A DNA stretch of 64,000 nt. Origin: an uncultured Lachnospiraceae bacterium (GTDB lineage: Bacteria; Bacillota; Clostridia; Lachnospirales; Lachnospiraceae). The position numbers were made by a program, and so were the translations under genes. How positions within the stretch are numbered: the stretch's first letter is position 1; the number at the start of each line of letters is the position of its first letter. Shown one piece after another: positions 2,373-20,999 of the stretch. The notes under the pieces are model-generated. The model was not told the origin of the DNA. It saw nothing but the letters and a program-made list of their open reading frames with translations, and made no database searches. The stretch is taken from positions 38,104 to 102,103 of the forward strand of contig CACYMQ010000011.1 of the NCBI GenBank assembly GCA_902775555.1, in the 5' to 3' direction.

Positions 2373-2375
2373 GGA

Positions 2376-2453
2376 CGTGGGACGACTGGGGACGGTTCTG
2401 GGACGATTGGGGACGGTTCTGGAACGCCCAGAACCGTCCCCAATCGTCCCACC
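2376..2453. repeat. R1 palindromic repeat between jetC and jetD
   Basis: The core is a near-perfect hairpin with arms of about 23 bp (2400-2422 and 2428-2451) built on GGGACGATTGGGGACGG and its complement. A half-copy of the same motif precedes it at 2376-2399. It belongs to the same family as the repeats at 3734, 5749, 7520 and 12190. Such intergenic palindromes resemble REP/BIME-type elements mobilised by Y1 tyrosine transposases; no such transposase is in this window. Confidence 0.85.
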
Positions 2454-2478
2454 ATCCCAGGGATAGGCAGAGGGAAAT

Positions 2479-3720: not shown

Positions 3721-3733
3721 ACTTGGGATGACT

Positions 3734-3812
3734 GGTGGGACGATTGGGGACGGTTCTGGGCGTCCCAGAACCGTCCCCAATCGTCCCACCGTCCCCAATC
3801 GTCTCACTCGTC
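3734..3812. repeat. R1 palindromic repeat after jetD
   Basis: Perfect hairpin at 3734-3790, arms of about 27 bp starting GGTGGGACGATTGGGGACGG with a 2-nt loop, followed by an extra half-copy (GTCCCCAATCGTCTCA) to about 3806. Same family as 2376. It may also act as a transcriptional barrier after jetD. Confidence 0.85.
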
Positions 3813-3831
3813 ACAAAGGGAGATCAAGGAT

Positions 3832-4779: not shown

Positions 4780-4832
4780 CTAAACATGGTATCACAGCCG
4801 GGAGAACGTAAAAAAGAAGGAGATACGAAGAG

Positions 4833-5747
4833 ATGATGCTTGAAACAGAACGTCTGATCCTGCGCCGCTGGGAGGACAGTGATGCAGAGGAAATGTACAA
4901 ATACGCCAGTGATCCCGACGTTGGCCCCATCGCAGGATGGCCCCCGCATCAGAGCGTGGACGAGAGCCTGGATGTGATCCGAAATGTCCTGAACGGGAAA
5001 GAGGCGTACGCGCTTTGCCTGAAAGAAGACGGCAAGGCAATCGGCGCCATTGAACTGAAACTGAACGGTCATAATGATCTGTCTGACCGGGACGATGAGT
5101 GCGAGCTGGGGTACTGGATCGGAAAGCCTTTTTGGGGACAGGGCCTCATGCCCGAGGCTGTGATGGAAATGCTCCGCCACGCATTTGAAGACTGCGGGAT
5201 GCAGAAGGTTTGGGTCGGCTATTATGAGGGGAACACCAAGTCGAAGCGTGTCCAGGAGAAATGCAGGTTCCGATATCAGTGGAGATCGGAAAATGTGGAT
5301 GTTCCCCTGATGCATGAGAAGCGGACCGGCCATGTGAGCAGCATGACAAAGGATCAGTGGCAGTGGGACAGACTGTATGATGCTGCCGCAGCCGTACGGA
5401 ACGAACGCAGGATATCCGAATACGTGACCTGCGGCGAGGTCTCCGCAGCGATTCTGTCCGGTACCGGCCGAATATACACCGGCGTTTGCATCGACACCTG
5501 CTCAACCCTCGGAATCTGTGCCGAGCGGAATGCGATCTTCAATATGATCACCAACGGAGAACAGGAGATCAAAAAGGTGATCGCGATCCTGCCCGATGGC
5601 TCCAGCGGAGCACCCTGCGGCGCCTGCCGGGAACTCATGGTACAGCTGATGCCGGGGAAATATAAAGATATCGAGATCATGATGGATTATAAAGAAGAGC
5701 GGATCATGACGATGGGAGAACTGACACCGGAGTGGTGGATCAAGTAG
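4833..5747 (+). CDS. GNAT acetyltransferase-cytidine deaminase fusion
   Basis: 304 residues, AAGGAGA upstream; a second in-frame ATG follows at 4836. Residues 1 to about 175 are a RimJ/RimL-type GNAT domain (LRRWEDSDAEEMYKYASDP start; acetyl-CoA loop around GQGLMPEAV, 103-110; EKCRFRY near 142-148). Residues about 180-304 are a cytidine/blasticidin-S deaminase-like domain with zinc ligands C229 and C262/C265 and catalytic E231 (CAERNA, PCGAC). Both active-site sets appear intact. The usual Gly of the GNAT EKCGF motif is Arg144. A natural guess is modification or detoxification of a nucleoside-type compound by two chemistries; no substrate can be read from the sequence. No frameshift or stop lies between the domains, so the fusion is a single frame. 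Confidence 0.8.
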   Translation: MMLETERLILRRWEDSDAEEMYKYASDPDVGPIAGWPPHQSVDESLDVIRNVLNGKEAYALCLKEDGKAIGAIELKLNGHNDLSDRDDECELGYWIGKPFWGQGLMPEAVMEMLRHAFEDCGMQKVWVGYYEGNTKSKRVQEKCRFRYQWRSENVDVPLMHEKRTGHVSSMTKDQWQWDRLYDAAAAVRNERRISEYVTCGEVSAAILSGTGRIYTGVCIDTCSTLGICAERNAIFNMITNGEQEIKKVIAILPDGSSGAPCGACRELMVQLMPGKYKDIEIMMDYKEERIMTMGELTPEWWIK

Positions 5748-5748
5748 G

Positions 5749-5847
5749 TTTGGAACGACAGGGGACGGAGGTGGAACGATTGGGGACGGTTCTGGGCGTC
5801 CCAGAACCGTCCCCAATCGTTCCACCTCCGTCCCCAATCGTTCCAAA
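5749..5847. repeat. R1 palindromic repeat, GGAACGATT variant
   Basis: About 99 bp folding end to end: outer arms TTTGGAACGA / TCGTTCCAAA, middle GGGGACGGAGG / CCTCCGTCCCC, inner TGGAACGATTGGGGACGG with its complement and a 2-nt loop. Outer arms differ at a few bases (ACAGGGG against ATTGGGG), unlike the inner perfect arms. Same family as 2376. Confidence 0.85.
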
Positions 5848-5883
5848 GCAATCTGTATTTATAATTGGTTAGGAGGTGCTGTG

Positions 5884-6495
5884 ATGGTTTCAGTTCCAAT
5901 GGCTTTGGTGGATTATATACCGGTGGTGTTGTACAGCATATCTGCCGTAATACTGCAGAGATATTTTTATGACAGGATGAGCAGGGGGGCATTTGCCCTT
6001 CTCTCGGCCGGTATGATCATGAGTATCATGGCCGGACTGTTCAAGGCTACATGGAAACTGCTGTTTGCCCTTGGGGTCTGTGATTTTGACAGGCTTAACA
6101 AGTCCTTTTTTCCCTTGCAGTCGGTAGGGTTCCTCCTGGCCGGTATAGCTCTTATGCTTATGGTTTTTACAAGGCAGAAAGGAACTTCTTTACACAGTGC
6201 TGCGCCCGCAGTTTTTGCCGGTACAGGTGTTTTTATCGCGCTCATGGTCCTGGGTCTTTGCGGTATGTTTCTTGGCTTATCGGTTGAGGCTAAACGCAGG
6301 AAGAAGAAATCGGCAATGGTTTTGTTTATCATCACATTTGTGTTCATGCTCATGATGGGTTATCTGTCATCAAAGAATTTTGAGAAGGCTTCCATGAACT
6401 GGATATCCGAGGGTGTGAACGTTATGGGATGGAGTATTTTCCTTATGGGATCAAGGATACTGAGCGGTGCCGGGAAAGAAAAGGAAAGCATCTAA
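5884..6495 (+). CDS. Hypothetical multi-pass membrane protein
   Basis: About 203 residues. The start is the ATG at 5884 or the GTG just before it at 5881, after AGGAGGTG. Hydrophobic segments suggest about six transmembrane helices (roughly residues 8-24, 36-58, 75-92, 107-128, 140-158 and 170-188), separated by short basic loops such as KRRKKKS. No known family recognised. It stands alone after an R1 repeat; its stop overlaps the stop of the convergent EEP gene. Confidence 0.6.
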   Translation: MVSVPMALVDYIPVVLYSISAVILQRYFYDRMSRGAFALLSAGMIMSIMAGLFKATWKLLFALGVCDFDRLNKSFFPLQSVGFLLAGIALMLMVFTRQKGTSLHSAAPAVFAGTGVFIALMVLGLCGMFLGLSVEAKRRKKKSAMVLFIITFVFMLMMGYLSSKNFEKASMNWISEGVNVMGWSIFLMGSRILSGAGKEKESI

Positions 6496-7145
6496 CGTAC
6501 GCCGCTGAACTGAAAGTCGGCATACAGGAGGTTGTGATCGGAGCATTTCGTTTCCGATACTCCGCTTGAAAGCTCGGTGAAGCCTTCGCTTACCACGATG
6601 TTATCGATAGCCACATTCCAGCGATGAAAGGTGGTATAACTTCGGCCAGGGCGATTGACATAGTAGGCGGCATCCAGATGGGTGATATCCTCGAGATGAA
6701 AGCTGTTGAGATCGCCGAGAAGAGCATAATTGTCAAATGTGTCCAGCATGCCGGCTATGGCTCCCATCTGATCGATCACCAGTGAACGGCCGTTGTTGGA
6801 AAGATGTGTCACGAGCACGTGAAGCTTTACACCATCCACGGAAATGACAGCGTGTCCTACGGAGCGGTCTTCGCCGATTTCTGTATACAGGGGGATGACA
6901 TCAAATTGTTCTATGGGATAGCGGGAGAGCAGTGCCGTGCCGTATTCTCCGTCACCGAGGGAGATCGCCTTTGCAAAAGCGTGGTAAGGATAGCCGGCCA
7001 GTCGGGCAAGCTCTGCCGGTTCGTCAGCATATCCGGAGCGCTCACATCCCACATCAACCTCCTCGAGACCGATGATATCGGGAGATACTGAAAGAGGATC
7101 ATGGACATATCGGGAAAATGTACGGATTCCTCGTCCTTGTTGCAT
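6492..7145 (-). CDS. Endonuclease/exonuclease/phosphatase (EEP) domain protein, N-terminus damaged
   Basis: 217 residues from the first usable ATG. EEP-fold hallmarks: PDIIGLEEVD (metal-binding Glu), GTALLSRYPI, HVLVTHLS, ALLGDLNSF (GDLN) and the C-terminal SDHNLLYADF (catalytic His). EEP enzymes cleave phosphodiesters or phosphomonoesters. The usual N-terminal strand (MK-[IV]-x-[ST]-[YF]-N-x-x-x-G) is absent in this frame. A one-base shift just upstream would restore MKVKMAN ahead of MQQGRGI, so a small deletion at the 5' end is likely. The segment between the start and IIGLEEV is also short. It may be inactive. It lies head to head with an MFS remnant. Confidence 0.6.
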   Translation of the reverse strand: MQQGRGIRTFSRYVHDPLSVSPDIIGLEEVDVGCERSGYADEPAELARLAGYPYHAFAKAISLGDGEYGTALLSRYPIEQFDVIPLYTEIGEDRSVGHAVISVDGVKLHVLVTHLSNNGRSLVIDQMGAIAGMLDTFDNYALLGDLNSFHLEDITHLDAAYYVNRPGRSYTTFHRWNVAIDNIVVSEGFTELSSGVSETKCSDHNLLYADFQFSGVR

Positions 7146-7517
7146 TTGCCATCTTCACTTTCATAACCGGCACGGGACTTTCTTACGCCCGTTTGAATGC
7201 GCAGGAGCTGCTCGCAGATCGTCGATACGGAAAGCATAGTTCCGTTTCTATGCGTAGGATATCTGATGACGGCATTTGCGCGGGACCCGTATGTGACCAT
7301 CGTTCAGAATATGTCGCTGGACAGCAGTGAGGCGCGAAGACAGAAGAATATCCTGGTTGCGTTGAATGGGGCCAAAAAGATCGGGGCGCTGGTCCTGTCG
7401 GCCGTGGCGACCCTGTTCGTGGAGCATGGATCCATAGCTGCCGTCATGATGCTGATGACCGCGGTTGCGGGGGTAGATATCCTGCTGAGCGTGATCATCT
7501 GGCGCCGATCGAAATGA
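7118..7517 (+). pseudogene. C-terminal remnant of an MFS-type transporter
   Basis: From about 7215 one frame encodes TESIVPFLCVGYLMTAFARD followed by a loop and ALNGAKKIGALVLSAVATL, then IAAVMMLMTAVAGVDILLS and a basic end (WRRSK). This reads like the last three helices of a major facilitator transporter. The hydrophobic segment at 7118-7190 (FLVLVAFAIFTFITGTGL) is in another frame. No N-terminal two thirds is present, and the 5' end collides with the damaged start of the EEP gene. Most likely a rearrangement scar. Confidence 0.5.
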
Positions 7518-7519
7518 TC

Positions 7520-7617
7520 ATGGTACGACAGGGGACGGAGGTGGAACGACAGGGGACGGAGGTGGAACGATTGGGGACGGTTCTGGGCGTCCCAGAACCG
7601 TCCCCAATCGTTCCATC
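7520..7617. repeat. R1 palindromic repeat with duplicated left arm
   Basis: The inner hairpin at about 7563-7617 (TGGAACGATTGGGGACGG, GGGCGTCCC centre, complement) is preceded by two direct copies of the 27-bp block ACGACAGGGGACGGAGGTGG at about 7525 and 7547. The right flank lacks the matching outer copies, so the element is asymmetrical. Confidence 0.8.
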
Positions 7618-7689
7618 CCGGGTGTGACAGTTCTGTGACAAAGGCTATGCTATGATGTGATCGTACAAAAGAATTGTACACCCTAAAAC

Positions 7690-7765
7690 CTTCCCCCAAC
7701 TTTACCAAAAGAACCCGGTTCATCAACAGCGGATGATGAATCGGGATTCTTTTTGAGGGGGAAGA
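7690..7765 (+). terminator. Nested hairpin with T-run upstream of ABC operon
   Basis: Stem CCCGGTTCATC (7714-7724) with GATGAATCGGG (7735-7745), flanked by AAAAGAA / TTCTTTT, giving a terminator-like T-run at 7748-7754. Outside it CTTCCCCC (about 7690) can pair with GGGGGAAG (about 7757). An inverted repeat GTACAA / TTGTAC lies at about 7665-7681. It could be a two-way terminator after the R1 repeat, or a structured leader. Confidence 0.5.
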
Positions 7766-7782
7766 CTATTTTCAAGTTATCC

Positions 7783-7810
7783 TTGCACGCATCTTCAAAA
7801 TATGTATAAT
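7783..7810 (+). promoter_or_regulatory. Promoter of the ABC transporter operon
   Basis: TTGCAC at 7783-7788, 16-bp spacer, perfect TATAAT at 7805-7810. Transcription would start near 7817, leaving a leader of about 85 nt before the TTG start at 7901. Confidence 0.7.
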
Positions 7811-7900
7811 GTAAGGAAGTAACTGCAGACGGACCTTTTCTCCGTATGTATTTTCGCGTTGGGGCGAAAGGTGGTATGCCGAAAGGGAGGTAAAAAAGCT

Positions 7901-8725
7901 TTGGGCGAAACAGTACTGGAACTGAAAGACATCAAAAAGTACTACGGCCAGCACAAGGTTTTGAAGGGCGTAAATATGACCGTCAACAAGGGTGATATTT
8001 ACGGACTTGTAGGTAAGAACGGTGCCGGTAAGACAACGCTTTTCAAGGTTGTACTCGGTCTCTCCAGAACAAATGGTGGAACGGTATCCATTTTTGGAGG
8101 TCAGAACAACAGAGAGAATAACAGAAACCGCAGAAGGATCGGATTCTTCGTAGGTGCCAATTTCTATGGGTATCTGAATGCCAGACAGAATCTGGATTAT
8201 TTCCGGAGACTGAAGGGTATCAAGGATCCGAAAGAGGTGGATCGCGTACTTGAAATTGTAGGTTTAAATACAGATGCGGCGAAGAAACCGGCGAAAATGT
8301 ATTCTCTGGGTATGAAGCAGCGTCTCGGGATTGCAAATGCCATGCTGGGCAATCCGGAGCTTCTGATCTTCGATGAGCCCACAAATGGTCTGGATCCTCA
8401 GGGTATCATGGACGTCCGCCATATGATCCAGCATGTAAATGAGGAGTACGGAACGACGATCATCGTATCCTCTCACATCCTGGGTGAGTTGGAGCATACC
8501 GCTCACCGGTTCGGTATCGTACATGAGGGCATCCTGATGAAGGAAATGTCCCAGGAGGATATGCGGACGCAGAGCAAGATCACTTCCATCAATGTAAATG
8601 ACGCCGACGTGGAGAAGGCGCTTCAGCTGTTGAAGGACGGTGGAATTGAAGTAAAGGGAACCGAGCAGGCGACCACTTCTCTGGAGGACTTCTACTTCGG
8701 ATTGATCGGAGGTGGCGAAGAATGA
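7901..8725 (+). CDS. ABC transporter ATP-binding protein
   Basis: 274 residues from a TTG codon at 7901 preceded by GGGAGG at 7886-7891. The longer reading from 7859 would place basic residues with no homology at the N-terminus and has no ribosome site. Walker A GKNGAGKTT, signature YSLGMKQR, Walker B LLIFDEPTNGLDP and switch His in SSHIL are all present, so it should hydrolyse ATP. The C-terminal 70 residues form the small regulatory extension seen in ABC-2 exporters of the CcmA/bacitracin-type group. The stop overlaps the permease start (ATGA), indicating translational coupling. Confidence 0.9.
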   Translation: MGETVLELKDIKKYYGQHKVLKGVNMTVNKGDIYGLVGKNGAGKTTLFKVVLGLSRTNGGTVSIFGGQNNRENNRNRRRIGFFVGANFYGYLNARQNLDYFRRLKGIKDPKEVDRVLEIVGLNTDAAKKPAKMYSLGMKQRLGIANAMLGNPELLIFDEPTNGLDPQGIMDVRHMIQHVNEEYGTTIIVSSHILGELEHTAHRFGIVHEGILMKEMSQEDMRTQSKITSINVNDADVEKALQLLKDGGIEVKGTEQATTSLEDFYFGLIGGGEE

Positions 8726-9612
8726 TGAGACGAATTGTACTTACGGACCTGCGCCGTGCGCAGAGAAAGAAGAGCTACATCATCTGCATGTCGATTGTGG
8801 TACTGCTGATGTTGATCGTATGCATCTTTTCTTTCGTCAGACCTTCCTCTTCGGAAGCTTTGGCGGCACAGACGAGAGAAACAAGCGGAAGGGCGCTTCA
8901 GTTCCTGGACAGCATAGGGATCGCATTTTCTATGCTCCCGTTCCTGGTGGGAATCCCCATTTTCCAGACCGTATTCTCCGATGACTTCAAGAGCCGCACC
9001 ATGCAGACGGCCATCGGACGTGGCATTTCCAGAAGAAGACTGGTACTTGCCAGATTCTATGAGGTGATCGCACTGCTCATCGAGGCGTGCCTGATCTTCA
9101 CCGTGATCGGTATCATCATGGGTATTATCATGGGTGCTTCCATCGGCGGACTGGCATCCATGACGGGAAGCCTCTTCTTTGATGCGATCCTGGTCGTTTC
9201 AAATATGTCGATCGCGATGCTGATCCTGTATATGTCACAGAATACGACAGGCGGCCTGGTTATGTACATCCTGCTTGCAGCGGATGTCTTCCGTATGATC
9301 CTCGCACTGGCGGATATGATCCCGTTCCTGAAGAACAATGATATCAAGCTCTCCAACATCCTTCCCGGCGGCGTACATCAGCTTGCAAGAAATAACCTGT
9401 TCGGCTATGTTCCGACGTTCTCCGATATCGCGGCCAACAATGAAGGGCTGAAGGAGGGAAGCCAGGCGGCACTTCAGAAGATCCTTGAGGAAACCATCGA
9501 GCCGAATTATCTGAAGGCATTATTGTATATCTGCATATTGGTGGGTGTATTCATCATCCTCCCGCTGGTACTTGCACAGGTTGTATTCAGAAAGAAAGAA
9601 CTGGAATTCTAA
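8722..9612 (+). CDS. ABC-2 type transporter permease
   Basis: 296 residues with about six membrane helices (near 21-42, 68-86, 110-135, 150-172, 178-200, 265-288), a cytosolic N-terminal MRRIVLTDLRRAQRKK and a large extracytoplasmic loop around 205-262. It is the membrane partner of the ATPase encoded immediately upstream, with a 4-bp overlap. The substrate cannot be deduced; ABC-2 pairs of this kind often export peptides or lipids or confer drug resistance. Confidence 0.85.
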   Translation: MMRRIVLTDLRRAQRKKSYIICMSIVVLLMLIVCIFSFVRPSSSEALAAQTRETSGRALQFLDSIGIAFSMLPFLVGIPIFQTVFSDDFKSRTMQTAIGRGISRRRLVLARFYEVIALLIEACLIFTVIGIIMGIIMGASIGGLASMTGSLFFDAILVVSNMSIAMLILYMSQNTTGGLVMYILLAADVFRMILALADMIPFLKNNDIKLSNILPGGVHQLARNNLFGYVPTFSDIAANNEGLKEGSQAALQKILEETIEPNYLKALLYICILVGVFIILPLVLAQVVFRKKELEF

Positions 9613-9671
9613 ATGCGGATCGATCCGTATGGCAAATGTGCCGCATTTTCTCATATGTGATCGGTACAGAG

Positions 9672-9703
9672 GACGGGAACGAAAAAGGTTCCCGTCTTTT
9701 TTT
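9672..9703 (+). terminator. Rho-independent terminator of the ABC operon
   Basis: Perfect 9-bp stem GACGGGAAC / GTTCCCGTC (9672-9680, 9688-9696) followed by seven T. Confidence 0.9.
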
Positions 9704-9730
9704 GTGTAAGCGCGTGCAGTATGTTATACT
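9702..9730 (+). promoter_or_regulatory. Promoter of the phosphotransferase operon
   Basis: TTGTGT at 9702-9707, 17-bp spacer, TATACT at 9725-9730. It begins inside the T-run of the preceding terminator. The predicted transcript start (about 9737) excludes the ATG at 9736 as start codon of the next gene. Confidence 0.6.
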
Positions 9731-9777
9731 GAGATATGATCAAGCAGAGGAACTATCAAATGTGCGGGAGGACGCGT

Positions 9778-10713
9778 ATGAGCGGGACAGACGGGAATAC
9801 AAAAAAAGAGAAGGAACTTCGGGAGATCAGTATCACGGACTGCCCTGAGATCGGCAGAGGTGCGCACGGGATCGTTTACCGGATCGCGCCGGATATGCTG
9901 GTGAAGGTTTATTATCCGGGTATCTCCCTGGACAGGATCAAAATGGAACGGGAGCTGGCCAAGTGGGCGTTCGTGAAAGGGATACCCACCGCGATCCCAT
10001 TTGACATCGTGCGTGTGGGAGAGCAGTACGGTACGGTATTTGAACTGCTGGATGCGACTTCGTCCGTGGATTATATCGGGGAAGCGCATGAGAATCTGGA
10101 TGAATTCATCCGACAGTCGGTGGAGCTGATGAAGCAGGTGCATGCAGTGGAAGCCGAAAGGGGCGAGCTTCCGGATATGAAGCGGCAGACGATGGGATGG
10201 CTGGAGAAGGTGAAGGGGAAGCTCCCCGACGAATTATTTGACCGACTGTGCGTGCTTGTAAATGAGGTGCCGGACCGGTGGACGATCCTTCATGCAGACT
10301 TCCATCTGAAGAATATCATGGTTGCCAAGGAAGGACTGATGCTCATTGATATGGACACGCTCTGTACCGGGGACCCGATCTTTGAACTGTCGACCGTTTA
10401 CGTGTCCTATCGTCAGTTCCCGTCCATCGACCCCATGGCGGCGGAGATCCTGGGGATCGATGTCGAGACGGCGGCTTATATAGCAGACCGCACATTTGAA
10501 CTGTATCTCGGCGAGACCGACCGGAAGACGATGGAGGATACGGTAAGAAAGGCGCGGATCCTCGGATGTGTCCGGATCATAGATTACATGGACAGGCATC
10601 GGGATCATCCGGCGACGGAAATGTGCATCGGACGGTGTCTGCAGGATCTGACGAAGGATCTGGGAGAACTCTGCGGGAAATCCGCGGGAGGTCATCGTGA
10701 AACTGCTGAATGA
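9778..10713 (+). CDS. Aminoglycoside phosphotransferase-family kinase
   Basis: 311 residues from ATG 9778, chosen because GGGAGGA lies just upstream and the promoter rules out the earlier in-frame ATG. A kinase-like fold is clear: glycine loop IGRGAHGIVYRI, ATP lysine in LVKVYYPG, catalytic loop LHADFHLKNIM (HxDxxxxN) and metal motif LIDMDTLC. The IGRGAHG start and overall length resemble the TIGR02172-type paralogous phosphotransferases. The substrate is unknown; drug resistance is not implied. It overlaps the next gene by 17 bp. Confidence 0.75.
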   Translation: MSGTDGNTKKEKELREISITDCPEIGRGAHGIVYRIAPDMLVKVYYPGISLDRIKMERELAKWAFVKGIPTAIPFDIVRVGEQYGTVFELLDATSSVDYIGEAHENLDEFIRQSVELMKQVHAVEAERGELPDMKRQTMGWLEKVKGKLPDELFDRLCVLVNEVPDRWTILHADFHLKNIMVAKEGLMLIDMDTLCTGDPIFELSTVYVSYRQFPSIDPMAAEILGIDVETAAYIADRTFELYLGETDRKTMEDTVRKARILGCVRIIDYMDRHRDHPATEMCIGRCLQDLTKDLGELCGKSAGGHRETAE

Positions 10714-12189: not shown

Positions 12190-12385
12190 GGTTGATTGGG
12201 GTGAGACGATTGGGGACGGAGGTGGGACGATTGGGGACGGTTCTGGGACGCCCAGAACCGTCCCCAATCGTCCCACCTCCGTCCCCAATCGTGATTGGGG
12301 ACGGAGGTGGGACGATTGGGGACGGTTCTGGGACGCCCAGAACCGTCCCCAATCGTCCCACCTCCGTCCCCAATCGTCCCAATCG
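12190..12385. repeat. Two tandem R1 palindromic repeats
   Basis: Two consecutive copies of about 92 bp (12202-12293 and 12294-12385). Each reads ATTGGGGACGGAGGTGGGAC, core hairpin with GGGACGCCC centre, and the complement. The two copies are almost identical, suggesting recent duplication. They lie between the converging ends of the plus-strand operon and the PP2C gene. Confidence 0.9.
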
Positions 12386-12387
12386 TT

Positions 12388-14088
12388 TTATTCTTTATCA
12401 TCCTGCTTGCCGAAGTAGGTGATGCCAAGCATGGTGATGTCGTCGAACTGGGGTGCATCCTTGACGAAAGCATCGATGCCTTCCCGAACGATGGGAAGCA
12501 GTTCCTGCGGAGTGGCGTCGACATGCTTGTTCATAACCTCCAGCATACGGTCGGTGCCAAAGAGTTCATTCTCAGCATTTGTAGCTTCCGGTACACCGTC
12601 GGTGTAAACGTACAGGGTGTCGCCGGGGTGAAGCTCGAATTCATGCTCACGGAACTTCATGCCTTCCATGGTTGCAACTGCAGGAGAGTGACGATATACG
12701 ACGAGCTCGAACTGTCCGCCGGCTCTCTTCAGTACCGGATGTTCGTGACCTGCATTGGCCGCGATCCCCTTTCCGGTGGTGAGATCGATGATGGCGAACC
12801 ATACGGTAACGAAGAGCTCGGCTCCGTTTCCTTCACAGAGCTGCTCATTTGCATAGGACAGAACCTCGGAAGGAGTTCCACCCATCAGTGCGCGGTTCTT
12901 GATCAGGGTTTTGGCGATGACCATGAAGAGCGCTGCGGGAACACCTTTACCGGACACATCGGCCATGACCAGTCCCAGATGGTTGTCATCGATGTGGAAG
13001 AAGTCATAGAAGTCTCCACCGACTTCCTTGGCGGGATCCATGGTGGCATAGAGGGTGTATTCCTTTCGATCCGGGAATACCGTGGGAAGCATATCCGCCT
13101 GAATGGTGGTGGCGACATTCAGCTCCGCACCGATCCTCTCTTTCTCGGAGGTGAGGGCCTTCACATCTTCGATATATTCATTGATACCGATCTCCATATG
13201 AAGGATACTCTCACTGAGTACCTGGATCTCATCACCCGTCTGGATGGATTTCAGCTTGTCGGAAACCTGTGTATTGTTCGATACGAAGTTCCGTGCCTCG
13301 GAAGCGGAGAGCTTGATCGGCGCGATAACGAATTTGTATGCAAGGAATGCAGAGATCAGCAGACTGAAGATCACTACGATTCCGGTGATCAGAGAGATCC
13401 AAAGTACGAAGTTTCTGAGGCTGGTGTTCAGGGTCTTCATGGGGATCTCAACACCGACAAATGCCACAGTCTCGCCCCCGTCGGTAATGGGCAGGATGGC
13501 TGTCATATTATATCCGAAACCGGCTTCAGAGATATAGAAGCCGTCATAACGCTTTCCGGACTTATGGGATTCAAACAGGGAATCACGGTATTCCGGAAGG
13601 ATCGTACCGACATCTCCCAGATAGAAGCGGTCTTCCTCGACCTCATATACATCCGCGATGTAGCAGAGGGGATTCCAGGTCCGGGCTTCAAAGCCTTCGG
13701 GTGTATAGGCTTTCAGGACGTCCATATCAACGGTGATAACGAAAATGTCATTTGCTTCGAAGCTGGACCGGAGGTTGGCCATTTGGGAAAGGATACGTTT
13801 ATAATCCTCGGAATTCTCGATCGCGTCCAGAGCTGACTTATCGATCTTTCCTTTCTGGTATTCCGCTACCTGCTTCGCATACTCTGTCAGTGCCCCGTCG
13901 GGGAAATACTCTTTGACGGTCTCTGCGACATCGTATGCCACCGTGTCGTAATGCTCCTTGATGGAATGATCATACACGATACGACCGACGATCAAAACGC
14001 CGGCATAGATCAGGATGCCCATGCAAAGAAGGATCATAAGGAACTTGATCGACAGCCTTCTTTTTCTGTTAGTCTTATTTGTTTTCAT
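12388..14088 (-). CDS. Membrane-bound sensor SpoIIE/RsbU-type PP2C phosphatase
   Basis: 566 residues. N-terminal helix (about 14-36), an extracytoplasmic sensor region (about 37-220) of the Cache/PAS-like kind, a second helix (about 230-255), a HAMP-like linker, then a PPM/SpoIIE phosphatase domain (about 330-560). Metal ligands are in VGGDFYDFFHID and LVMADVSGKGV; NAGHEHPVL and the terminal QFDDITML are conserved. Such proteins dephosphorylate STAS anti-anti-sigma proteins in partner-switching. The gene starts inside the end of the GH3 gene (ATG overlapping its last codons), so it is the last gene of a minus-strand operon. No STAS protein is encoded in the window. Confidence 0.88.
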   Translation of the reverse strand: MKTNKTNRKRRLSIKFLMILLCMGILIYAGVLIVGRIVYDHSIKEHYDTVAYDVAETVKEYFPDGALTEYAKQVAEYQKGKIDKSALDAIENSEDYKRILSQMANLRSSFEANDIFVITVDMDVLKAYTPEGFEARTWNPLCYIADVYEVEEDRFYLGDVGTILPEYRDSLFESHKSGKRYDGFYISEAGFGYNMTAILPITDGGETVAFVGVEIPMKTLNTSLRNFVLWISLITGIVVIFSLLISAFLAYKFVIAPIKLSASEARNFVSNNTQVSDKLKSIQTGDEIQVLSESILHMEIGINEYIEDVKALTSEKERIGAELNVATTIQADMLPTVFPDRKEYTLYATMDPAKEVGGDFYDFFHIDDNHLGLVMADVSGKGVPAALFMVIAKTLIKNRALMGGTPSEVLSYANEQLCEGNGAELFVTVWFAIIDLTTGKGIAANAGHEHPVLKRAGGQFELVVYRHSPAVATMEGMKFREHEFELHPGDTLYVYTDGVPEATNAENELFGTDRMLEVMNKHVDATPQELLPIVREGIDAFVKDAPQFDDITMLGITYFGKQDDKE

Positions 14089-15760
14089 TTGTTTCTGTCC
14101 TCCAAATGTGCTGGGGTTTTGCCTGCCCTGTGGACAGGGACAGCTCTTCTTTGTATCTTAAAAATGCGTCTTTCTCCATATACCGGATGACCGGCATATC
14201 GATGGATCCCAATTGACGGAGCTCACGGTAATCCTCACTCAGCCGTTGGAGACATCGGTCCAGGGCCGCGGCGTCATACCGCAGCATTTCATCTCCGCGC
14301 ATTCCGTGATATCCGTAACCTGTGGAGGGATCATTTATCCCTGCAGGGGGAGTGCCCGGAACGGATTGCCCGGTGTCCGGAGCAAGGATGCCGGAATACC
14401 TGGAAGGTACTACACTTCTGTCTTCATAGAAGAAGTACTGCCAAATCCGCACTCCCTGTTCTTCCGACCAGTGACGTACGGCCCGGTCCAGAGTCTCTAT
14501 GTCCAGCTTTTCGCCTGCGATATTCAGTACCAGATTCTTGCGGAAGAGGAAACGGAAGATCGGCAGCTGTCCGTAGAAGCCTACGATCCTCAGGATGTCT
14601 CCCATTGAATAGCGGTAGAGACCGGCATGGCTGGTAAGAATGAGCTCATACATTTCTCCGATCCTGAGCTCCTCCGGGGGATAGATCTTCTGATCCGAGA
14701 CCGATCGGAATTCGTATCCGCCCATGTTTGGATAGAAGATATAATCATATGAGTCAAAATTATACGGAACCGCGCTCAGGCATTCCGAGGCGGCATATAT
14801 ATACGCCCAGAGCGGGATGGGGTCCTTGCCGATGTAACGCTGGAAGGACAGCTCCTCGACCTTGAAGGCGTTGCTTACAATGCCTCCGATCATTTGAACA
14901 TTTGGCCAAAGCCTGGGCACGATGCCTTTAAAGCCATCCGCACACACCTCCCGTATGTGGTCCAGCCGCGCCTTACTTACCGGGAGCCGGCTCAGTGCCT
15001 CACGTACAGATTCCGGAAGGTCTACCTGCTCCGAAGGCCTGCCCTGTTCCATATCCTTCAGGACCTCACGAAAATGTGACTCCATGTAGTGGAAGAAGAG
15101 CAGATAGTCATAGAGGAAGATCGTCTCCATGGTTATGATGTCTTCACTGGCAAAGGCCAGCCAGAGCTTCGCGTAAAGGTAGTCGCAGGGTTCGGGGAAG
15201 AAGTTTAAGGGCCCTTCTCCGACCCAGGTCGTAAGATCCATGAGCCCGTGGTCTGCCAGGTACCGGTAGTAGATCGACGAGAAGACGCTGGAATCCGTCT
15301 CCTGATGCGGCAGAGACAGGTCGGACTGGAGAAAGGAGAGGAAAAATCTCTTTCCCTGATGATCCCGGGCGAAAGCCGCCGGAAAGCGGTCTACGATATT
15401 TCCGTACTGCTTCATGGCTTCTTCGGATTCGGGGATGTGCTTTCTCTTCTGGGTTGAACCGGAGGTCTCGGCAAATGCATAGAGATTCCCTGTGAAGAGA
15501 ATATCCTTCTCCCCGCTCATGATCCGGTCCATATATTCCTGCAGATCGGAATATTTGCAGACTGGAACCAGCCGGTCGTAATCAGCCAGAGTTTGAACCT
15601 CGGAGAAATGATACTTCCTTCCGTACTCCGTGTCGCTGTTCCTTCTCACGATGTCCAGGATCGTCTCCTGGTTCATTCGGAAGAAGGAGTGCTTGGCCTT
15701 CTCAAGCTCGGGGTAGACCATGGGACGAAATATATTGTTTTCCTTCCATTTTTCGTTCAT
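14075..15760 (-). CDS. GH3-family adenylate-forming enzyme
   Basis: 561 residues. The GH3 fold (ANL superfamily, acyl-acid amido synthetase) is indicated by AFAETSGSTQKRKHIP (P-loop-like ATP motif), WPNVQMIGGIVSNAF, the central SHAGLYRYSMGDILRIVGF and NLVLNIAGEKLD at the hinge to the C-terminal lobe. Plant GH3 proteins join acids such as auxin or jasmonate to amino acids; bacterial homologues have few known products. Here it is encoded with an ATP-grasp ligase, a MATE transporter and a PP2C phosphatase, so it may activate a carboxylate for conjugation. A low-complexity insert (about 495-520, rich in Pro and Gly) interrupts the C-terminal lobe. The 3' end overlaps the PP2C start. Confidence 0.85.
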   Translation of the reverse strand: MNEKWKENNIFRPMVYPELEKAKHSFFRMNQETILDIVRRNSDTEYGRKYHFSEVQTLADYDRLVPVCKYSDLQEYMDRIMSGEKDILFTGNLYAFAETSGSTQKRKHIPESEEAMKQYGNIVDRFPAAFARDHQGKRFFLSFLQSDLSLPHQETDSSVFSSIYYRYLADHGLMDLTTWVGEGPLNFFPEPCDYLYAKLWLAFASEDIITMETIFLYDYLLFFHYMESHFREVLKDMEQGRPSEQVDLPESVREALSRLPVSKARLDHIREVCADGFKGIVPRLWPNVQMIGGIVSNAFKVEELSFQRYIGKDPIPLWAYIYAASECLSAVPYNFDSYDYIFYPNMGGYEFRSVSDQKIYPPEELRIGEMYELILTSHAGLYRYSMGDILRIVGFYGQLPIFRFLFRKNLVLNIAGEKLDIETLDRAVRHWSEEQGVRIWQYFFYEDRSVVPSRYSGILAPDTGQSVPGTPPAGINDPSTGYGYHGMRGDEMLRYDAAALDRCLQRLSEDYRELRQLGSIDMPVIRYMEKDAFLRYKEELSLSTGQAKPQHIWRTETNENK

Positions 15761-15807
15761 AGTAAATGTTTCGTGGCCGGCCGGACCGGCTTTTTCTCAA
15801 TTTTTCC

Positions 15808-16172
15808 GAGGGCGAAGCTCTGCATACGGGGAGTACAAATGTACCTTGTCATCCTGAGGGCGCAGCCCTATATGTCATCCTGAGGGCGCAGCCCTGCATA
15901 CGGGGAGTATAAATGTACCTTGTCATCCTGAGGGCGCAGCCCTATATGTCATCCTGAGGGCGCAGCCCGAAGGATCTTACAGGCGGCAAGATTCTTCGCT
16001 TCGCGCTGCCGCTTGGTCGATACTCGGCGCACAAGCCGCGTGCCACCGGCACGCGTGCGCCCGCTCAGAATGACGCCATTCGCTCAGAATGACAGGCGGG
16101 CAAGATTCTTCGCTTCGCTCAGAATGACACCATTCGCTCAGAATGACACCATTCGCTCAGAATGACAGGCTC
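15808..16172. repeat. R2 repeat block with 74-bp tandem duplication
   Basis: This 415-bp gap between the GH3 and ATP-grasp genes is filled by R2 material. A 74-bp unit (TGCATACGGGGAGTA, AAATGTACCTTGTCATCC, GGGCGCAGCCC) is repeated at 15808-15881 and 15882-15955. Then come TGTCATCCTGAGG...GAAGGATCTT, a segment with CCGCGTGCCACCGGCACGCG (16035-16055), and several GCTCAGAATGACA ends to 16172. No promoter or coding potential is convincing. Confidence 0.85.
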
Positions 16173-16175
16173 GTG

Positions 16176-18443
16176 TCACTTCTTATGATACACCTCATCC
16201 AGGATGCGGTGGTTGTACTTCCCGAAGAACGGGCCGTTTATACACTGGGTATCGTCGCTTCCTCCCAGACAGAGATTGGCTTCGATCAGTACGGGGTCTC
16301 CCGTGTCATCGACTGCGATATCCCAGGAGATCAGGCGATGGTAGGCCATAAAAGGATGACACCGCTTCACCATTTCCTTACATTGATCCAGAGCGGGGAC
16401 ATGGATTCCCTCAATGGTATAGCCCAGGTCCGGGTGGACGGTGGTTGTGGTCCCGTTGTCCAGCGAGCCGATCTTCCGGAGCCTGTCGGAGCTGTCGATG
16501 CCGCAGTAAAAGCCGCCGGAGCAGCCGTTGTCGACTCTGTGCTTCCCTGCGCCCACCTTCAGCGAACAGGAAAGAATGACGACCTCCTTCTCCAGAAGAA
16601 GAGAAATGATACGGTAGGTATTTACGGATTCCGGATGCAGCCGTGCCAGGTCCGGATGCTGCCGGATTGTACGCTGGATCACGATATCCCGCTTCAGGCT
16701 CCTTATGATGGAGCGGAATTCCTTCAGGCTTTCCCTGCGGTCCTTCTTTATTTCAAGAAAATGTACGTCCGCCCCGCCTTCGGATCCCTGGGCGCCTTTG
16801 ATCACCACTTCACCGGCGGCAAATACCTTTCGCAGGACCTCCTTCGGTGAGACCGGCTGATAGTCCCGGTCGACCCAGATCGGGCCGATCCGCATGGCAA
16901 CTGCTTCGGGCTGCTTTGCGTCGGGGAACAGACGATACTGATAACATTTATTTCCAAGGTAGTATGCCATGTCCCGGTCACTGAGATACCGGTCGATGTC
17001 ACATAGAAACATTTCCTCCGGGACATAATCCACATGGAATACTCCGGATTTTGCCTTGTACATCCGATGCGAAGAGGTATGGACGTTCTTCACATAGGGG
17101 TCGTAGTATCTCCGGATCGCACGGATCTCTTCCTGCGTCAGCTCCGGATAGGAACCGGAGATCGCACGGATCGCCTTACGGTCGAGCCGGCGGAGTGCCG
17201 CGTTGCAGAGAAGTACGATCTGGGTATAACCGGCCTTATAATAAGCGGCGGTTATTGCCAGAAGGTTATCCCGGAGACGGAAATAATTTCTTTCATTCAT
17301 TCCGAAATACGGCCTGTGCCGACGGCGTCCGTCCGGACGGAAATATACCTCATCCAGAACCTCGCGGGTATACTTCCCGAGGAGAGGCCCGCAGCTCTCC
17401 TGAACCGCGTCAATGCCACCGCCCATCGCCATATTCGTTTCGATCAGAACCGCTTCGCCGGAGCTGTCAATGGCCACGTCCCAGTGGGCGAACCGGTTAT
17501 GGCCCATGATCCCGTGGGCCCGCTTCACGATTTCTACAGCTTTATGATAATACGGAAGTCGGATTCCGTCAAATTGATAATGCAGTTCCGGATGCTCCCG
17601 GGTGGCGGTTCCGTCCTTGCGGATACCCAGTTCTCCCAGGCTTCCGTCTTCATGGATACAGCAGAGGACTCCGCCGTATCCCAGGTTATCTACCCGGCTG
17701 TCACCGGCACCGATCCGGACTGCGGATGCCAGGATCTTCACACCCTCTTTTGTAAGAAGGGAAATGATACGCAGGGTATTTACGGAGGACGGGTGAAGCG
17801 CCGCATACGCCGGATGCTGGTCTATGGCAGCCTGAACCACCAGGTCGATCCTTCCGGGATCGGCGGCCTTTGCCAGCTCCATAAACCGGCGCTGCCGTTC
17901 TTCCGGATTCAGGTCGTCGAGGAAATAGACGCCGTATCCGCATTCGGAAAATGTGGCATGTTTAAAGACGGACTTCTCCTGTTCGCCGACGATGGAAGCC
18001 GCTTCCTCCAGACTGATGGGACGGAAATGCCCGTCCAGCCAGCGGCCTTTGATCCGCATGGCATAAAGCTCCGGCTGTTTCACGGAGGAGAAGAAACGGT
18101 AATAGAAGCATTTGTTGTCCAGATATTTGGATGCAAGCCGGTCCGAATAGTAAGGCTCGATCCTGCGGTAGTACATTTCCTCGGAAATGTATTCGGGATG
18201 GAACTTCCCTGAGCATCCGGTGAATACCCGGTGGCAGAGAAGATTGACCCTTTCATATTTGCCGAAATATTTTCTTACTTCTGCCTTCTGCCCGGCGGTC
18301 AGGTCGGGATACCGGAACTTCTTCTGGTAGCCCCTGTATTTCTTTCGAACGATGCGCATCAGGGCAGGGGTGATCAGCCGGTCCAGGTCGGTCACGCCTT
18401 CTTTATAATTACCTGTAAGTAAAGGATATAGATTATTCATCAT
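16176..18443 (-). CDS. Tandem ATP-grasp protein (sugar-transfer-associated type)
   Basis: 755 residues made of two homologous halves (about 1-375 and 376-755). Each half has CHRVFTGCSGKFH / SHRMYKAKSGVFH, an entry segment ending KQPE-[LA]-[YV]-AMRI, the motif QHPxxAxLHPxSVNT-x-RIISLL, DN-x-x-x-GG, and the metal-binding end WDVAIDSSGEAVLIETN / WDIAVDDTGDPVLIEAN. The halves are diverged but both keep the acidic and Asn ligands, so both may be active. ATP-grasp enzymes make amide or ester bonds through acyl phosphates; the sugar-transfer-associated family is often found near polysaccharide genes. Its ATG directly follows the MATE stop codon with no gap, so the two are translationally coupled. 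Confidence 0.8.
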   Translation of the reverse strand: MMNNLYPLLTGNYKEGVTDLDRLITPALMRIVRKKYRGYQKKFRYPDLTAGQKAEVRKYFGKYERVNLLCHRVFTGCSGKFHPEYISEEMYYRRIEPYYSDRLASKYLDNKCFYYRFFSSVKQPELYAMRIKGRWLDGHFRPISLEEAASIVGEQEKSVFKHATFSECGYGVYFLDDLNPEERQRRFMELAKAADPGRIDLVVQAAIDQHPAYAALHPSSVNTLRIISLLTKEGVKILASAVRIGAGDSRVDNLGYGGVLCCIHEDGSLGELGIRKDGTATREHPELHYQFDGIRLPYYHKAVEIVKRAHGIMGHNRFAHWDVAIDSSGEAVLIETNMAMGGGIDAVQESCGPLLGKYTREVLDEVYFRPDGRRRHRPYFGMNERNYFRLRDNLLAITAAYYKAGYTQIVLLCNAALRRLDRKAIRAISGSYPELTQEEIRAIRRYYDPYVKNVHTSSHRMYKAKSGVFHVDYVPEEMFLCDIDRYLSDRDMAYYLGNKCYQYRLFPDAKQPEAVAMRIGPIWVDRDYQPVSPKEVLRKVFAAGEVVIKGAQGSEGGADVHFLEIKKDRRESLKEFRSIIRSLKRDIVIQRTIRQHPDLARLHPESVNTYRIISLLLEKEVVILSCSLKVGAGKHRVDNGCSGGFYCGIDSSDRLRKIGSLDNGTTTTVHPDLGYTIEGIHVPALDQCKEMVKRCHPFMAYHRLISWDIAVDDTGDPVLIEANLCLGGSDDTQCINGPFFGKYNHRILDEVYHKK

Positions 18444-20177
18444 TTAAAACTCCACGGTAAGTATATTCATTCCTAACGAATAAAGATAATGGCAGTCCTT
18501 TGAGATCTTCTGGATCATCTGAACGCCCATGTTGAAGTCATCTTCCTGATTTTCGAAGGCTTCCTTGAAGAGGTTGTATTCCTTTCCGGAGCACATGATG
18601 GAGATGCCGAAGGTACTCTGATAGGAGAAGATCCGTACGTCCACCGGATCATTTTCCTTGTTCAGGGACTTTTGGACCATTACGGTCATAACCTCTTCCA
18701 GAGCAAGCCCGAGCTTTGTACCGGTCTTCCGATCCATGCCGTTTTCGAGGCAGAAATCGATCACGTCCGCGCTGGCCTGACAGATGGCTTCATTGGATGA
18801 AACGATGGAGAATGCCTTTACCTGGTTGTGTTTCTCCAGATAATCATCCAGCAGCAGGATCGGCGACAGCTCGTGATCCTTCCCGCGGGTCATAATGGAC
18901 TGGGATCTCGCTATGAGGACCGTGACGAGCAGGGTTACCGTCATGCTGACCGGAAGGAAGAACCAGACAGGCAGATTGAAATAGTAGCAGATCTGGGCGA
19001 AAAGGATCGGAAATACGAAGGTACGTATGACCATGATGAAATTCGAGAAGAAGACCCGCTTTGCCACATTGAAATAGGAGCCCAGTATGGAGCAGAGGAC
19101 TTCCTGGAGCACGGACAATCCGAGGCAGATAAAGGGGACCAGCATGTCCAGTCGGATCTTATAAAAACGTCCGATGGGTTCGTGAAAGACAACGGCAGTG
19201 AGTCCGAAGAGAAACGTGAGCATAAGACCCAGACGTATCTGCAAACGGACGAGGGAACGCACCCCTTCATTGTCGTGTCCGCCGATATAGATCCCGAGCA
19301 TGGGAGCAGCTGTCCTGGGGATACCCGTTGTGATGCAAAGAGTGATCTCCAGAAGGGAATTGACAACGGCCCAGATGGCAAGACCCTGTGTTCCGGATGC
19401 GGAGTAAATGATCATATTCAGCACGAACATACGGATCACATCCATCAGGTTGCCGATGGCAGCGGAGCTTCCGAACAGAATGATGTTCTTTAAACCAAAC
19501 AGACGGAAATGCCTGAGCCTCAGCCGGAAAATGTGGTCGTGGAGGTGTAAACGGAGAAAACCAAATACTGCGGCCGCAAGGGTTGAGATCACGCTTGCAA
19601 GTGCTGCGCCGGCGATCCCCCATTTGAAGACAAAGAGGAACAGCCAGTCCAGGATGATATCGGAAATGACCATGATCAGCGTCATCGTGGTCATGTCCTT
19701 CGTTCTTCCGCTGAGCTGAAGGAAATAAGTGGGAATATAGACCAGGATGTACGGAAGGGATCCGATGAGAGTGATCCGGCAATAGTCCGTGACCATATCT
19801 GTCAGGGAGGGATCGTTGGTGAGAAAATTCGCTACCTGCGTGGGAAAGAAGAATCCGACTGCCATAAATCCCAGGCTGAACAGGACCGAAAAAAGAATGG
19901 CGCTGTGATAATAGGCCTGTGCATCCTCGACCTTTGAAGCGCCGAGAGCGTGGGAAGACGCGATGAAAGAGCCGACGCCAAAAAGGCTTCCCACCATGCA
20001 AAGTGCCAGGAATACCGGCATATTTACACTGATGGCAGCCAGAGCAGAGGAATCAAGATTTCTGGATACAAAGGTGGAATCGATCAGTGTATTGACGGTT
20101 CCGCCCAGTACAGAAAGCATGACCGGGATAAGCGCCCTTTTAAATTCTCTTTGCTGAAATGTACTGCTTCTTTCCAT
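18444..20177 (-). CDS. MATE-type transporter with C-terminal GHKL-like domain
   Basis: 577 residues. Residues 1 to about 430 form twelve helices of the MATE/MOP superfamily (start REFKRALIPVMLSVLGGTVN, typical of MATE). After SIMTRGKDHELSP a soluble domain of about 140 residues follows: KLGLALEEVMTVMVQKS stands where the GHKL N-box is expected but lacks its Asn, and FNMGVQMIQKISKD resembles the G-box of RsbW-type kinases. ATP binding is therefore uncertain. MATE proteins exchange Na+ or H+ for drugs or lipid-linked compounds. Fusion to an anti-sigma-like domain and co-occurrence with a PP2C phosphatase suggest transport tied to partner-switching. No good ribosome site precedes this ATG. Confidence 0.82.
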   Translation of the reverse strand: MERSSTFQQREFKRALIPVMLSVLGGTVNTLIDSTFVSRNLDSSALAAISVNMPVFLALCMVGSLFGVGSFIASSHALGASKVEDAQAYYHSAILFSVLFSLGFMAVGFFFPTQVANFLTNDPSLTDMVTDYCRITLIGSLPYILVYIPTYFLQLSGRTKDMTTMTLIMVISDIILDWLFLFVFKWGIAGAALASVISTLAAAVFGFLRLHLHDHIFRLRLRHFRLFGLKNIILFGSSAAIGNLMDVIRMFVLNMIIYSASGTQGLAIWAVVNSLLEITLCITTGIPRTAAPMLGIYIGGHDNEGVRSLVRLQIRLGLMLTFLFGLTAVVFHEPIGRFYKIRLDMLVPFICLGLSVLQEVLCSILGSYFNVAKRVFFSNFIMVIRTFVFPILFAQICYYFNLPVWFFLPVSMTVTLLVTVLIARSQSIMTRGKDHELSPILLLDDYLEKHNQVKAFSIVSSNEAICQASADVIDFCLENGMDRKTGTKLGLALEEVMTVMVQKSLNKENDPVDVRIFSYQSTFGISIMCSGKEYNLFKEAFENQEDDFNMGVQMIQKISKDCHYLYSLGMNILTVEF

Positions 20178-20263: not shown

Positions 20264-20302
20264 ATAAAAAACAGGGAGCAGATCATGTCATGCTCCCTGT
20301 TT
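20264..20302 (-). terminator. Terminator of the histone-like gene
   Basis: AAACAGGGAGCA (20269-20280) and TGCTCCCTGTTT (20291-20302) form a 12-bp stem; on the minus strand it is followed by six T. This separates the histone-like gene from the MATE operon. Confidence 0.88.
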
Positions 20303-20332: not shown

Positions 20333-20471
20333 CTATTTTGTAAGATCCGCGATGGCTTTTTTGAGTCTTACGATATCGGCTTTCAGTGCTGCGATGTCAG
20401 CTTTCAGGACCGCATTTTCCGCGATCAGCTTCTCCTGCTTTGCAGAAGTGAGAAGTGTGGCAGCTTCCTTC
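20333..20471 (-). other. Out-of-frame 3' continuation of the histone H1-like gene
   Basis: Dropping one G near 20495 (in GCCGCAGAAAGCCGC) lets the frame run on to a TAG at 20333. The added tail reads KAAAKAAPAKKEAA, then a leucine-heptad coiled coil (LIAENAVLKADIAALKADI and on to LKKAIADLTK). Its good coding sense shows that the gene once, or still in some cells, ended here. It is followed properly by the terminator at 20264. Confidence 0.75.
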
Positions 20472-20999
20472 TTAGCCGGAGCAGCCTTGGCAGCGGCTTT
20501 CTGCGGCCTTCTTTGCGGGAGCCTTCTTTGCCGGTGCAGCCTTCTTGTCTGCGGCTGTCTTCTTGTCTGCGGCTGTCTTCTTGTCTGCGGCTGTCTTCTT
20601 CGCAGCGGCTGTCTTCTTCGCAGCTACAGTCTTCTTCGCAGCCGGTTTCTTGGCAGCGGCCTTCTTTGCGGCAACTGTCTTCTTGGCGGCCGGTTTCTTA
20701 GCTGCAGCCTGTTCGCTAACGGCTGCTGTGTCGGTTGCTTCCGCATTTACGGCAGGAGCAGCTTCCTTCTTCGCAGCAGCTTTCCTGGCCGGCGCTTTCT
20801 TTGCGTCATCCTTCTTGGCAACAGCCTTCTTATCTGCAGCATCCTTTACGGGTGCGGCGACGGCTGTAAGAGCCTTCTTCCAGGAAGTAAGTGTGGCGGG
20901 AGAGATGGACAGTTCCTTGGCAGCCTTGGTGATCCCGATTTCGTCTGCCTTTGCAAGTGCGGCTTTCTTATCTGCATCTGAATAGTTCTTACGCGCCAT
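20472..20999 (-). CDS. Histone H1-like Lys/Ala-rich DNA-binding protein, frameshifted tail
   Basis: 175 residues as it stands. Residues 1-45 (NYSDADKKAALAKADEIG and SPATLTSWKKAL) look like the helix-turn-helix of transposase OrfA/HTH_Tnp-type proteins. The rest is a low-complexity chain of KKAAAKK, KKTVAAKK and KKTAADKK units like the tails of eukaryotic H1 and bacterial Hc1/AlgP-type proteins. The tail should coat DNA without sequence preference while the N-terminus may add specificity. The frame ends abnormally in ESRCQGCSG; a single-base change restores a coiled-coil end (20333-20471). A strong promoter lies upstream and a terminator downstream, so it is probably highly expressed. Confidence 0.75.
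   Translation of the reverse strand: MARKNYSDADKKAALAKADEIGITKAAKELSISPATLTSWKKALTAVAAPVKDAADKKAVAKKDDAKKAPARKAAAKKEAAPAVNAEATDTAAVSEQAAAKKPAAKKTVAAKKAAAKKPAAKKTVAAKKTAAAKKTAADKKTAADKKTAADKKAAPAKKAPAKKAAESRCQGCSG

Follow-up and report, generated by a model that had tools for sequence, protein, structure and literature searches.

A conserved GH3, ATP-grasp, MATE and PP2C operon of Clostridia as a candidate signal-controlled make-and-export system

Four minus-strand genes at the locus

A 64,000-nucleotide stretch of DNA from an uncultured Lachnospiraceae bacterium (contig CACYMQ010000011.1 of assembly GCA_902775555.1), hereafter the window, carries four minus-strand genes coding for a transporter, two ligases and a phosphatase, which a first-pass annotation of the sequence had proposed to form a biosynthesis and export system. 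The source contig (G000:C11 in our collection) belongs to a genome of 3.0 Mb in 96 contigs that is 99.49% complete. In the direction of transcription, the first gene (18444..20177, minus strand) codes for a protein of 577 residues, MATE-GHKL, in which a MATE-fold transporter is followed by a C-terminal degenerate GHKL tail resembling HATPase_c_2 (about 18447-18830). The second (16176..18443, minus strand) codes for a tandem ATP-grasp ligase of 755 residues, in which PF14397 is found twice and each half has the Lys and Glu-x-Asn positions. After a gap of 415 bases (15761..16175, to which no strand is assigned), the third gene (14075..15760, minus strand) codes for a GH3-family acyl-acid amido synthetase-like enzyme of 561 residues, recognized from Pfam, from plant structures and from invariant residues. 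The fourth (12388..14088, minus strand) codes for PP2C, a membrane phosphatase of the SpoIIE type (Pfam SpoIIE) with 566 residues and an ectodomain of about 180 residues.

The coordinates and the Pfam domains of these open reading frames agree with the annotation. All the Pfam scores are above cut-off: 156 bits for SpoIIE, 96.4 for MatE (cut-off 24.9), 243 for ATPgrasp_ST in two stretches, and 172, 63.8 and 27.3 bits for the N, GH3_M and GH3_C parts of GH3 (cut-off 23.6 each). The junctions are also as annotated: the ATG of the ATP-grasp gene directly follows the TAA stop of the MATE gene, and the GH3 and PP2C genes overlap by 14 bases.

Conservation of the gene set in relatives

GH3 genes are uncommon in the family and genus genomes that we examined: any GH3 match at E 0.001 was detected in 13 of 150 family genomes and in 13 of 61 genus genomes. 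Five of the 61 have a close orthologue of the window GH3 (>460 bits), and four have one of the MATE protein (>600 bits, the next match listed having 142 bits); the double ATP-grasp was found in four as well. The close orthologues of the three proteins are confined to the same five genomes, and the two absences within these five, that of MATE in G173 and that of the ATP-grasp in G207, both correspond to contig ends.

To avoid selecting loci by their neighbours, named genomes were searched with the GH3 alignment alone. This gave 18 loci, assigned to Lachnospiraceae, Clostridia, Eubacterium, Marvinbryantia and Candidatus Crickella, which is a member of a different order of Clostridia (family Anaerovoracaceae). 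Of the 18, six are the same contigs as G175, G173, G207, G209, G116 and G322 of the genome scans. In a class-wide GH3 scan, 21 of 391 genomes had a match at E 1e-20, and the top matches outside the window were in G322 (the same contig as locus L090), G575 and G369, the latter two being from other families. In a tree of 60 GH3 sequences, rooted at its midpoint, we observed a clade of 21 with a support of 1.0, made of the window, the 18 search loci, L106 (G575) and L107 (G369). One locus, L049, had first been listed as core because of its neighbours; it has the set without the ATP-grasp, but lies outside the clade and was left out of the 21-locus counts.

Gene order was determined by six-frame profile search. 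PP2C adjoins GH3 in 20 of the 21 clade loci, the exception (L104) being cut by a contig end. MATE-GHKL is present in 17; L088, L092 and L093 are cut and L106 has none within the 19 kb fetched, so that four of the five PP2C or MATE absences in the clade are contig ends. An ATP-grasp is present in 14 clade loci. As a control, PP2C was found in three (L044, L048 and L050) of 32 loci of other GH3s, some of which are short or cut. Outside the clade, STAS genes are near GH3 in L044, L050, L108 and L109, and about 7-9 kb away in L052 and L053, which indicates that the link between GH3 and a switch exists beyond the clade.

Three subgroups were defined by gene content. Subgroup I (nine loci, including the window) has MATE-GHKL, the double ATP-grasp, GH3 and PP2C, and subgroup II (six loci) has STAS, a single ATP-grasp, MATE-GHKL, GH3, PP2C and HATPase. 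In subgroup III (six loci, no ATP-grasp), STAS is followed by GH3 and MATE, whose order varies, and then by PP2C and HATPase, with losses: STAS in L100 and L102, HATPase in L100 and MATE in L106. The last locus groups with subgroup II in the GH3 tree although it belongs to subgroup III by its gene content. In L107, phage-tail-like genes (Baseplate_J, Tail_P2_I; 5401-8608) are situated directly upstream of the STAS-GH3-MATE-PP2C operon.

The four genes are therefore a conserved unit, with their order kept in relatives and the same neighbours recovered from a GH3-only search. The first-pass annotation had itself raised the alternative that they lie together by chance. In the 61 genus genomes the close orthologues of GH3, MATE and the double ATP-grasp were not found apart, and the co-occurrence in five genus genomes, the GH3-only loci and the kept order led us to reject a chance neighbourhood, which is hardly credible and in favour of which we found no point.

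Two ligases and their probable chemistry

In plants, GH3 enzymes make jasmonoyl-isoleucine and inactivate hormones through conjugation. The window GH3 is homologous to plant enzymes (JAR1, GH3.1, GH3.12 and others) over near full length; the 10 sequences of plant GH3 structures that a PDB search listed have E values from 3e-84 to 2e-77. Residues S100, E326, YRY 382-384, D388, K418 and K548, which we take to be the catalytic residues, are invariant in nine sequences. The plant enzymes differ in that they have no operon context, and their substrates are not transferable at such distance.

Among NCBIfam families, the sole match of the window GH3 is OlsH, the lyso-ornithine lipid synthetase. PMC12493201 describes how OlsH, a GH3 enzyme of bacteria, couples a fatty acid with an amino acid in the ornithine lipid pathway of planctomycetes, where it shares an operon with OlsI. 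The two enzymes are alike as bacterial GH3s, but membership of the window protein in OlsH is ruled out by its score (60.4 bits against an equivalog cut-off of 620), and its neighbours are PP2C, MATE and ATP-grasp genes. The match nevertheless suggests one alternative function, membrane lipid remodelling, in which GH3, like OlsH, would make an N-acyl amino acid lipid, to be extended at its head group by the ATP-grasp and flipped by the MATE-fold protein; the transporter, considered below, bears on it too.

When five double ATP-grasp proteins were aligned, their N and C halves were 37-46% identical, and four single ATP-grasps were about equidistant from both halves. The Lys and Glu-x-Asn positions, presumably functional residues of the ATP-grasp (the Lys binding phosphate), are invariant in 14 of 14 sequences, namely 10 halves and four single proteins. 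By these half identities and invariant positions, the double form is at the sequence level the product of a tandem duplication and probably has two active sites. The predicted model, of middling quality (pLDDT, the predicted local distance difference test score, 75.3; pTM, the predicted template modelling score, 0.58), gave weak fold matches to carbamoyl phosphate synthetase, Ddl and ArgX, with TM-scores by query length of 0.17-0.31 among the matches listed; such modelled matches place the protein at the superfamily level only. A PDB sequence search returned just two ribosomal matches near E 1, which we took as chance.

In L038, GH3 and a RimK-type ATP-grasp are fused in one protein, an argument for the two chemistries being compatible within a single pathway. 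From their sequences, GH3 and the ATP-grasp probably join acids to amino acids, giving an amide conjugate. Another fusion, that of a glycosyltransferase of family 2 to GH3 in one protein, was observed in L054 (8434-11016) and L057 (8368-10923).

A MATE transporter with a degenerate GHKL tail

The AlphaFold model of the MATE protein (mean pLDDT 85.8) consists of a MATE fold and, C-terminal to it, a distinct alpha/beta domain. Its best fold matches in the PDB are MATE transporters, for example 6hfb and 4mlb, and it is below the cut-off of the TIGR00797 subfamily (122.6 versus 147.4). The lipid flippases WzxE and MurJ, among its weaker matches, would suit lipid remodelling, as would an Acyl_transf_3 gene situated at most 1 kb from the operon end in L049. 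However, the transporter is nearer to drug MATEs than to flippases in these matches, and with the low OlsH score we consider lipid remodelling rather unlikely.

Within the whole protein, the tail gave no Pfam match at E 0.01. Once excised, the window tail matched HATPase_c_2 with E 6e-4 and 20.3 bits, below the cut-off of 27.4, and matches to this family were obtained for eight of the nine tails scanned, the window included, with E up to 10 (best 1.5e-6); a PDB sequence search with the tail gave no match at E 1. In the window, the N-box Asn is replaced by Val and the G1 Asp by Cys. Both residues are replaced in all 18 operon transporters (window, 16 clade relatives and L049), which keep the N-box Glu, and 20 of 25 other MATE-GHKL proteins keep both. 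In addition, E494, E495, D513 and N571 show no variation among 22 MATE-GHKL proteins. The annotation had presented the GHKL domain as a part of a partner switch; judged by motif only, a working kinase does not fit, since both ATP-site residues are lost, and the domain looks like a pseudokinase. The tail is probably a pseudokinase docking domain, the docking being suggested by its sequence.

We also fetched 20 other MATE-GHKL neighbourhoods, which were chosen among the leading entries of a longer match list and in which part of the neighbours were put to Pfam. Non-ribosomal peptide synthetase (NRPS) genes adjoin MATE-GHKL in five of these 20 loci (L072, L074, L081, L082 and L084), ATP-grasp ligases different from that of the operon in two (L079 and L083), and PP2C is near in five (L074, L075, L079, L081 and L082); most of the remaining loci show neither NRPS nor ATP-grasp genes. 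One of the NRPS cases is in the window genome itself, where 3-10226 of locus L122 (G000:C25) has an NRPS gene and a MATE-GHKL with an intact N-box, adjoining a PP2C of 806 residues with a sensor of five transmembrane segments. By their sequences, these neighbourhoods suggest, but do not establish, a more general export-and-control module. In L075 (6829-8004), a STAS domain is fused to an APH-type kinase domain, and open frames of about 400 residues at several genus STAS matches hint at a recurrence of this fusion.

MATE proteins are often drug exporters. With the hormone inactivation by plant GH3 enzymes, this would agree with a conjugate-and-expel detoxification, in which GH3, with or without the ATP-grasp, would tag a toxic gut or rumen acid with amino acids, MATE would expel the conjugate and PP2C would sense envelope stress. 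The patchy distribution, with close orthologues in five of 61 genus genomes, would also fit. Nevertheless, such a system would not call for a dedicated switch or for a double ATP-grasp of its own, and the same MATE-GHKL family adjoins NRPS genes as described above, so that detoxification appears unlikely.

The PP2C sensor and its partner-switch components

The ectodomain of the window PP2C lies between two hydrophobic segments, one at about residues 10-40 and the other at about 222-261. The GDFYD, DVSGKG, YxDG and QFDDIT stretches, presumably the catalytic residues, are conserved in 17 PP2C sequences. Pfam named no family for the ectodomain in these 17 proteins, dCache_3 appearing at E 0.2 in one and HAMP in four. 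Between subgroups the ectodomain has a mean identity of 31-36% versus 51-74% for the phosphatase domain.

Such divergence would fit a self-contained chemical signalling circuit of Clostridia, in which GH3 and ATP-grasp would make a hormone-like acyl-amino-acid signal, MATE would release it, the PP2C ectodomain encoded in the same operon would receive it and the switch would close the loop through the pseudokinase tail as STAS receptor; receptor and synthase would then be expected to diverge together. However, it is no proof of such a circuit, because the N-terminal membrane segment of PP2C diverges as fast (25-28%), and we regard the circuit as quite unlikely.

RsbU/RsbV/RsbW and SpoIIE/SpoIIAA/SpoIIAB are partner switches, and subgroups II and III resemble them in having PP2C, STAS and HATPase_c_2. 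STAS is present in 10 of the 21 clade loci, with the SSAG motif in all 10; we take its Ser to be the phosphorylation site, as in SpoIIAA/RsbV. HATPase is also present in 10 of 21, each with the N-box Asn, the G1 Asp and GGLG intact. These STAS and HATPase calls were confirmed by Pfam on samples. The output here is apparently the transporter tail, a cyclase or the ligases, which differs from the Rsb and SpoII systems, no search having been aimed at sigma factors. In L106 (6330-8459), a PP2C-HATPase_c_2 fusion recognized by Pfam is beside GH3 and STAS.

A closer comparison is with SiaABCD. The best NCBIfam match of the window PP2C is SiaA, but the score of 54.7 bits is far short of the equivalog cut-off, which is 700; its best PDB sequence match is 6K4E. 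According to PMC7647112, 6K4E is the phosphatase domain of SiaA, a protein with two membrane spans and a HAMP domain; SiaABC is a partner switch of Pseudomonas aeruginosa, and the SiaABCD switch controls a diguanylate cyclase. The spans and HAMP of SiaA compare with the two hydrophobic segments of the window PP2C and the HAMP of four relatives. Subgroup II holds a phosphatase, a kinase, a STAS protein and a GGDEF protein as SiaABCD does; the operon differs by the addition of GH3, ATP-grasp and a MATE protein with a fused pseudo-HATPase, and the window locus holds the phosphatase alone of the switch, with no STAS-adjacent diguanylate cyclase.

Indeed, in all six subgroup II loci STAS is preceded by a GGDEF gene whose GGDEF motif is intact; Pfam recognizes the domain in L099 and in L045, which is the contig of L103. 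In L104 (2738-4306), GGDEF and STAS form a single open reading frame of 522 residues. As in SiaABCD, this gene beside STAS could mean that the switch controls gene expression or cyclic di-guanosine monophosphate, the enzymes and the exporter being merely regulated cargo and the MATE tail a relic, as its missing ATP-site residues would allow. However, the tail keeps its predicted alpha/beta fold and the four invariant residues mentioned above, which is unexpected for a relic, and we hold this possibility to be very improbable.

A model for the operon

The pairing of ligases with a tailed exporter and a membrane-sensor phosphatase suggests a conserved, signal-controlled make-and-export operon, in which GH3 and ATP-grasp would carry out the synthesis, MATE the export, and a partner switch set by PP2C the gating; we give this reading a probability of about 0.5. 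The families, the conserved gene order, the motif residues, the loss of the tail ATP site and the full switch set in relatives are read from the sequences, and from them we infer the chemistry, the direction of transport, the docking, the gating and the supply in trans that follow. GH3 would adenylate a carboxylic acid and join it to an amino acid or another amine, and the ATP-grasp, with two probable active sites in the window form, would add one or two more amide bonds before the MATE protein exports the product. The membrane PP2C would read an outside signal and dephosphorylate the STAS protein, which a separate HATPase kinase would re-phosphorylate. Unphosphorylated STAS may dock on the GHKL tail of the transporter, itself predicted to be unable to phosphorylate STAS, and this docking would either gate export or bring STAS to the ligases. 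In the window lineage, STAS and the kinase would be supplied in trans, not from the operon.

Several observations weigh against this make-and-export reading. Six of the 21 clade loci, those of subgroup III, have no ATP-grasp. At the window locus, co-transcription is uncertain because of the 415-base gap between the ATP-grasp and GH3 genes, which contains one copy of the dispersed repeat TCATTCTGAGCGAAGCGAAGAATCTT, present genome-wide in 143 copies at up to 3 mismatches versus 0 for the reversed control; this gap is absent from seven of seven subgroup I relatives with both genes, whose open reading frames abut or overlap. The loss of the N-box Asn is not unique to these operons, since five of the 25 other tails (L044, L055, L078, L079 and L083) have lost it. 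The direction and the cargo of MATE transport are not readable from sequence, and MATE cannot be the sole target of the switch, because L106 has none within the stretch fetched.

The switch of the window lineage raises a further difficulty. The proposal that a partner switch is involved is supported by the STAS, HATPase and GGDEF genes of related operons, but not by the window locus itself: STAS and HATPase were found in none of the nine subgroup I loci, only four of which (the window, L087, L089 and L094) have at least 2.5 kb on both sides. With no STAS or kinase in the locus, the switch of this lineage would have to work in trans. The window genome has nine STAS matches, of which the one most similar to the STAS proteins of the operons (153.8 bits) is on contig C34, where it adjoins an HATPase_c_2 with intact motifs (G000:C34:1598-1981), the pair being downstream of a glutamate dehydrogenase gene. 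However, relatives of this STAS at E 1e-12 are present in 46 of the 61 genus genomes, including all five operon-bearing ones, so that it is not specific to the operon. We therefore rejected it as a dedicated orphan STAS of the window operon; judged from its sequence, it is probably a general switch component.

As for known systems, none of six proteins matched PADLOC at E 0.001, and anti-phage defence was set aside. No description of this gene set was found in the open-licence literature by searches aimed at the set or at single parts of it, and the operon is probably undescribed; its components are known, and what is new, to the extent tested, is their combination together with the pseudokinase tail.

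Outside the genes, large palindromic repeats made of GGGACGGAGGTGGGACGATTGGGGACGGTTCTGGGACG and its complement lie directly past the PP2C stop (12190-12385). On the other side, a Lys/Ala-rich histone-like gene occupies 20334-20999 on the minus strand, with a frame that apparently shifts near 20500, and beside it is a terminator-like hairpin at about 20265-20301; the frame shift and the hairpin were judged by eye.

Significance

According to PMC12493201, a diversification of bacterial GH3s is possible and what it implies has yet to be clarified, and the operon gives a genetic handle on the roles of bacterial GH3s outside planctomycetes which that text leaves open. Its gene set is conserved in gut and rumen Clostridia.

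The main known settings of partner switching are sigma factors and biofilm cyclases. If the proposed reading is true, partner switching would also govern the synthesis and export of a small molecule, through a transporter with a fused pseudokinase. In that case, MATE-GHKL beside NRPS genes would mark a general module for the export and control of natural products in gut Clostridia, and would be useful for finding clusters that tools keyed to NRPS or polyketide synthase genes may miss.

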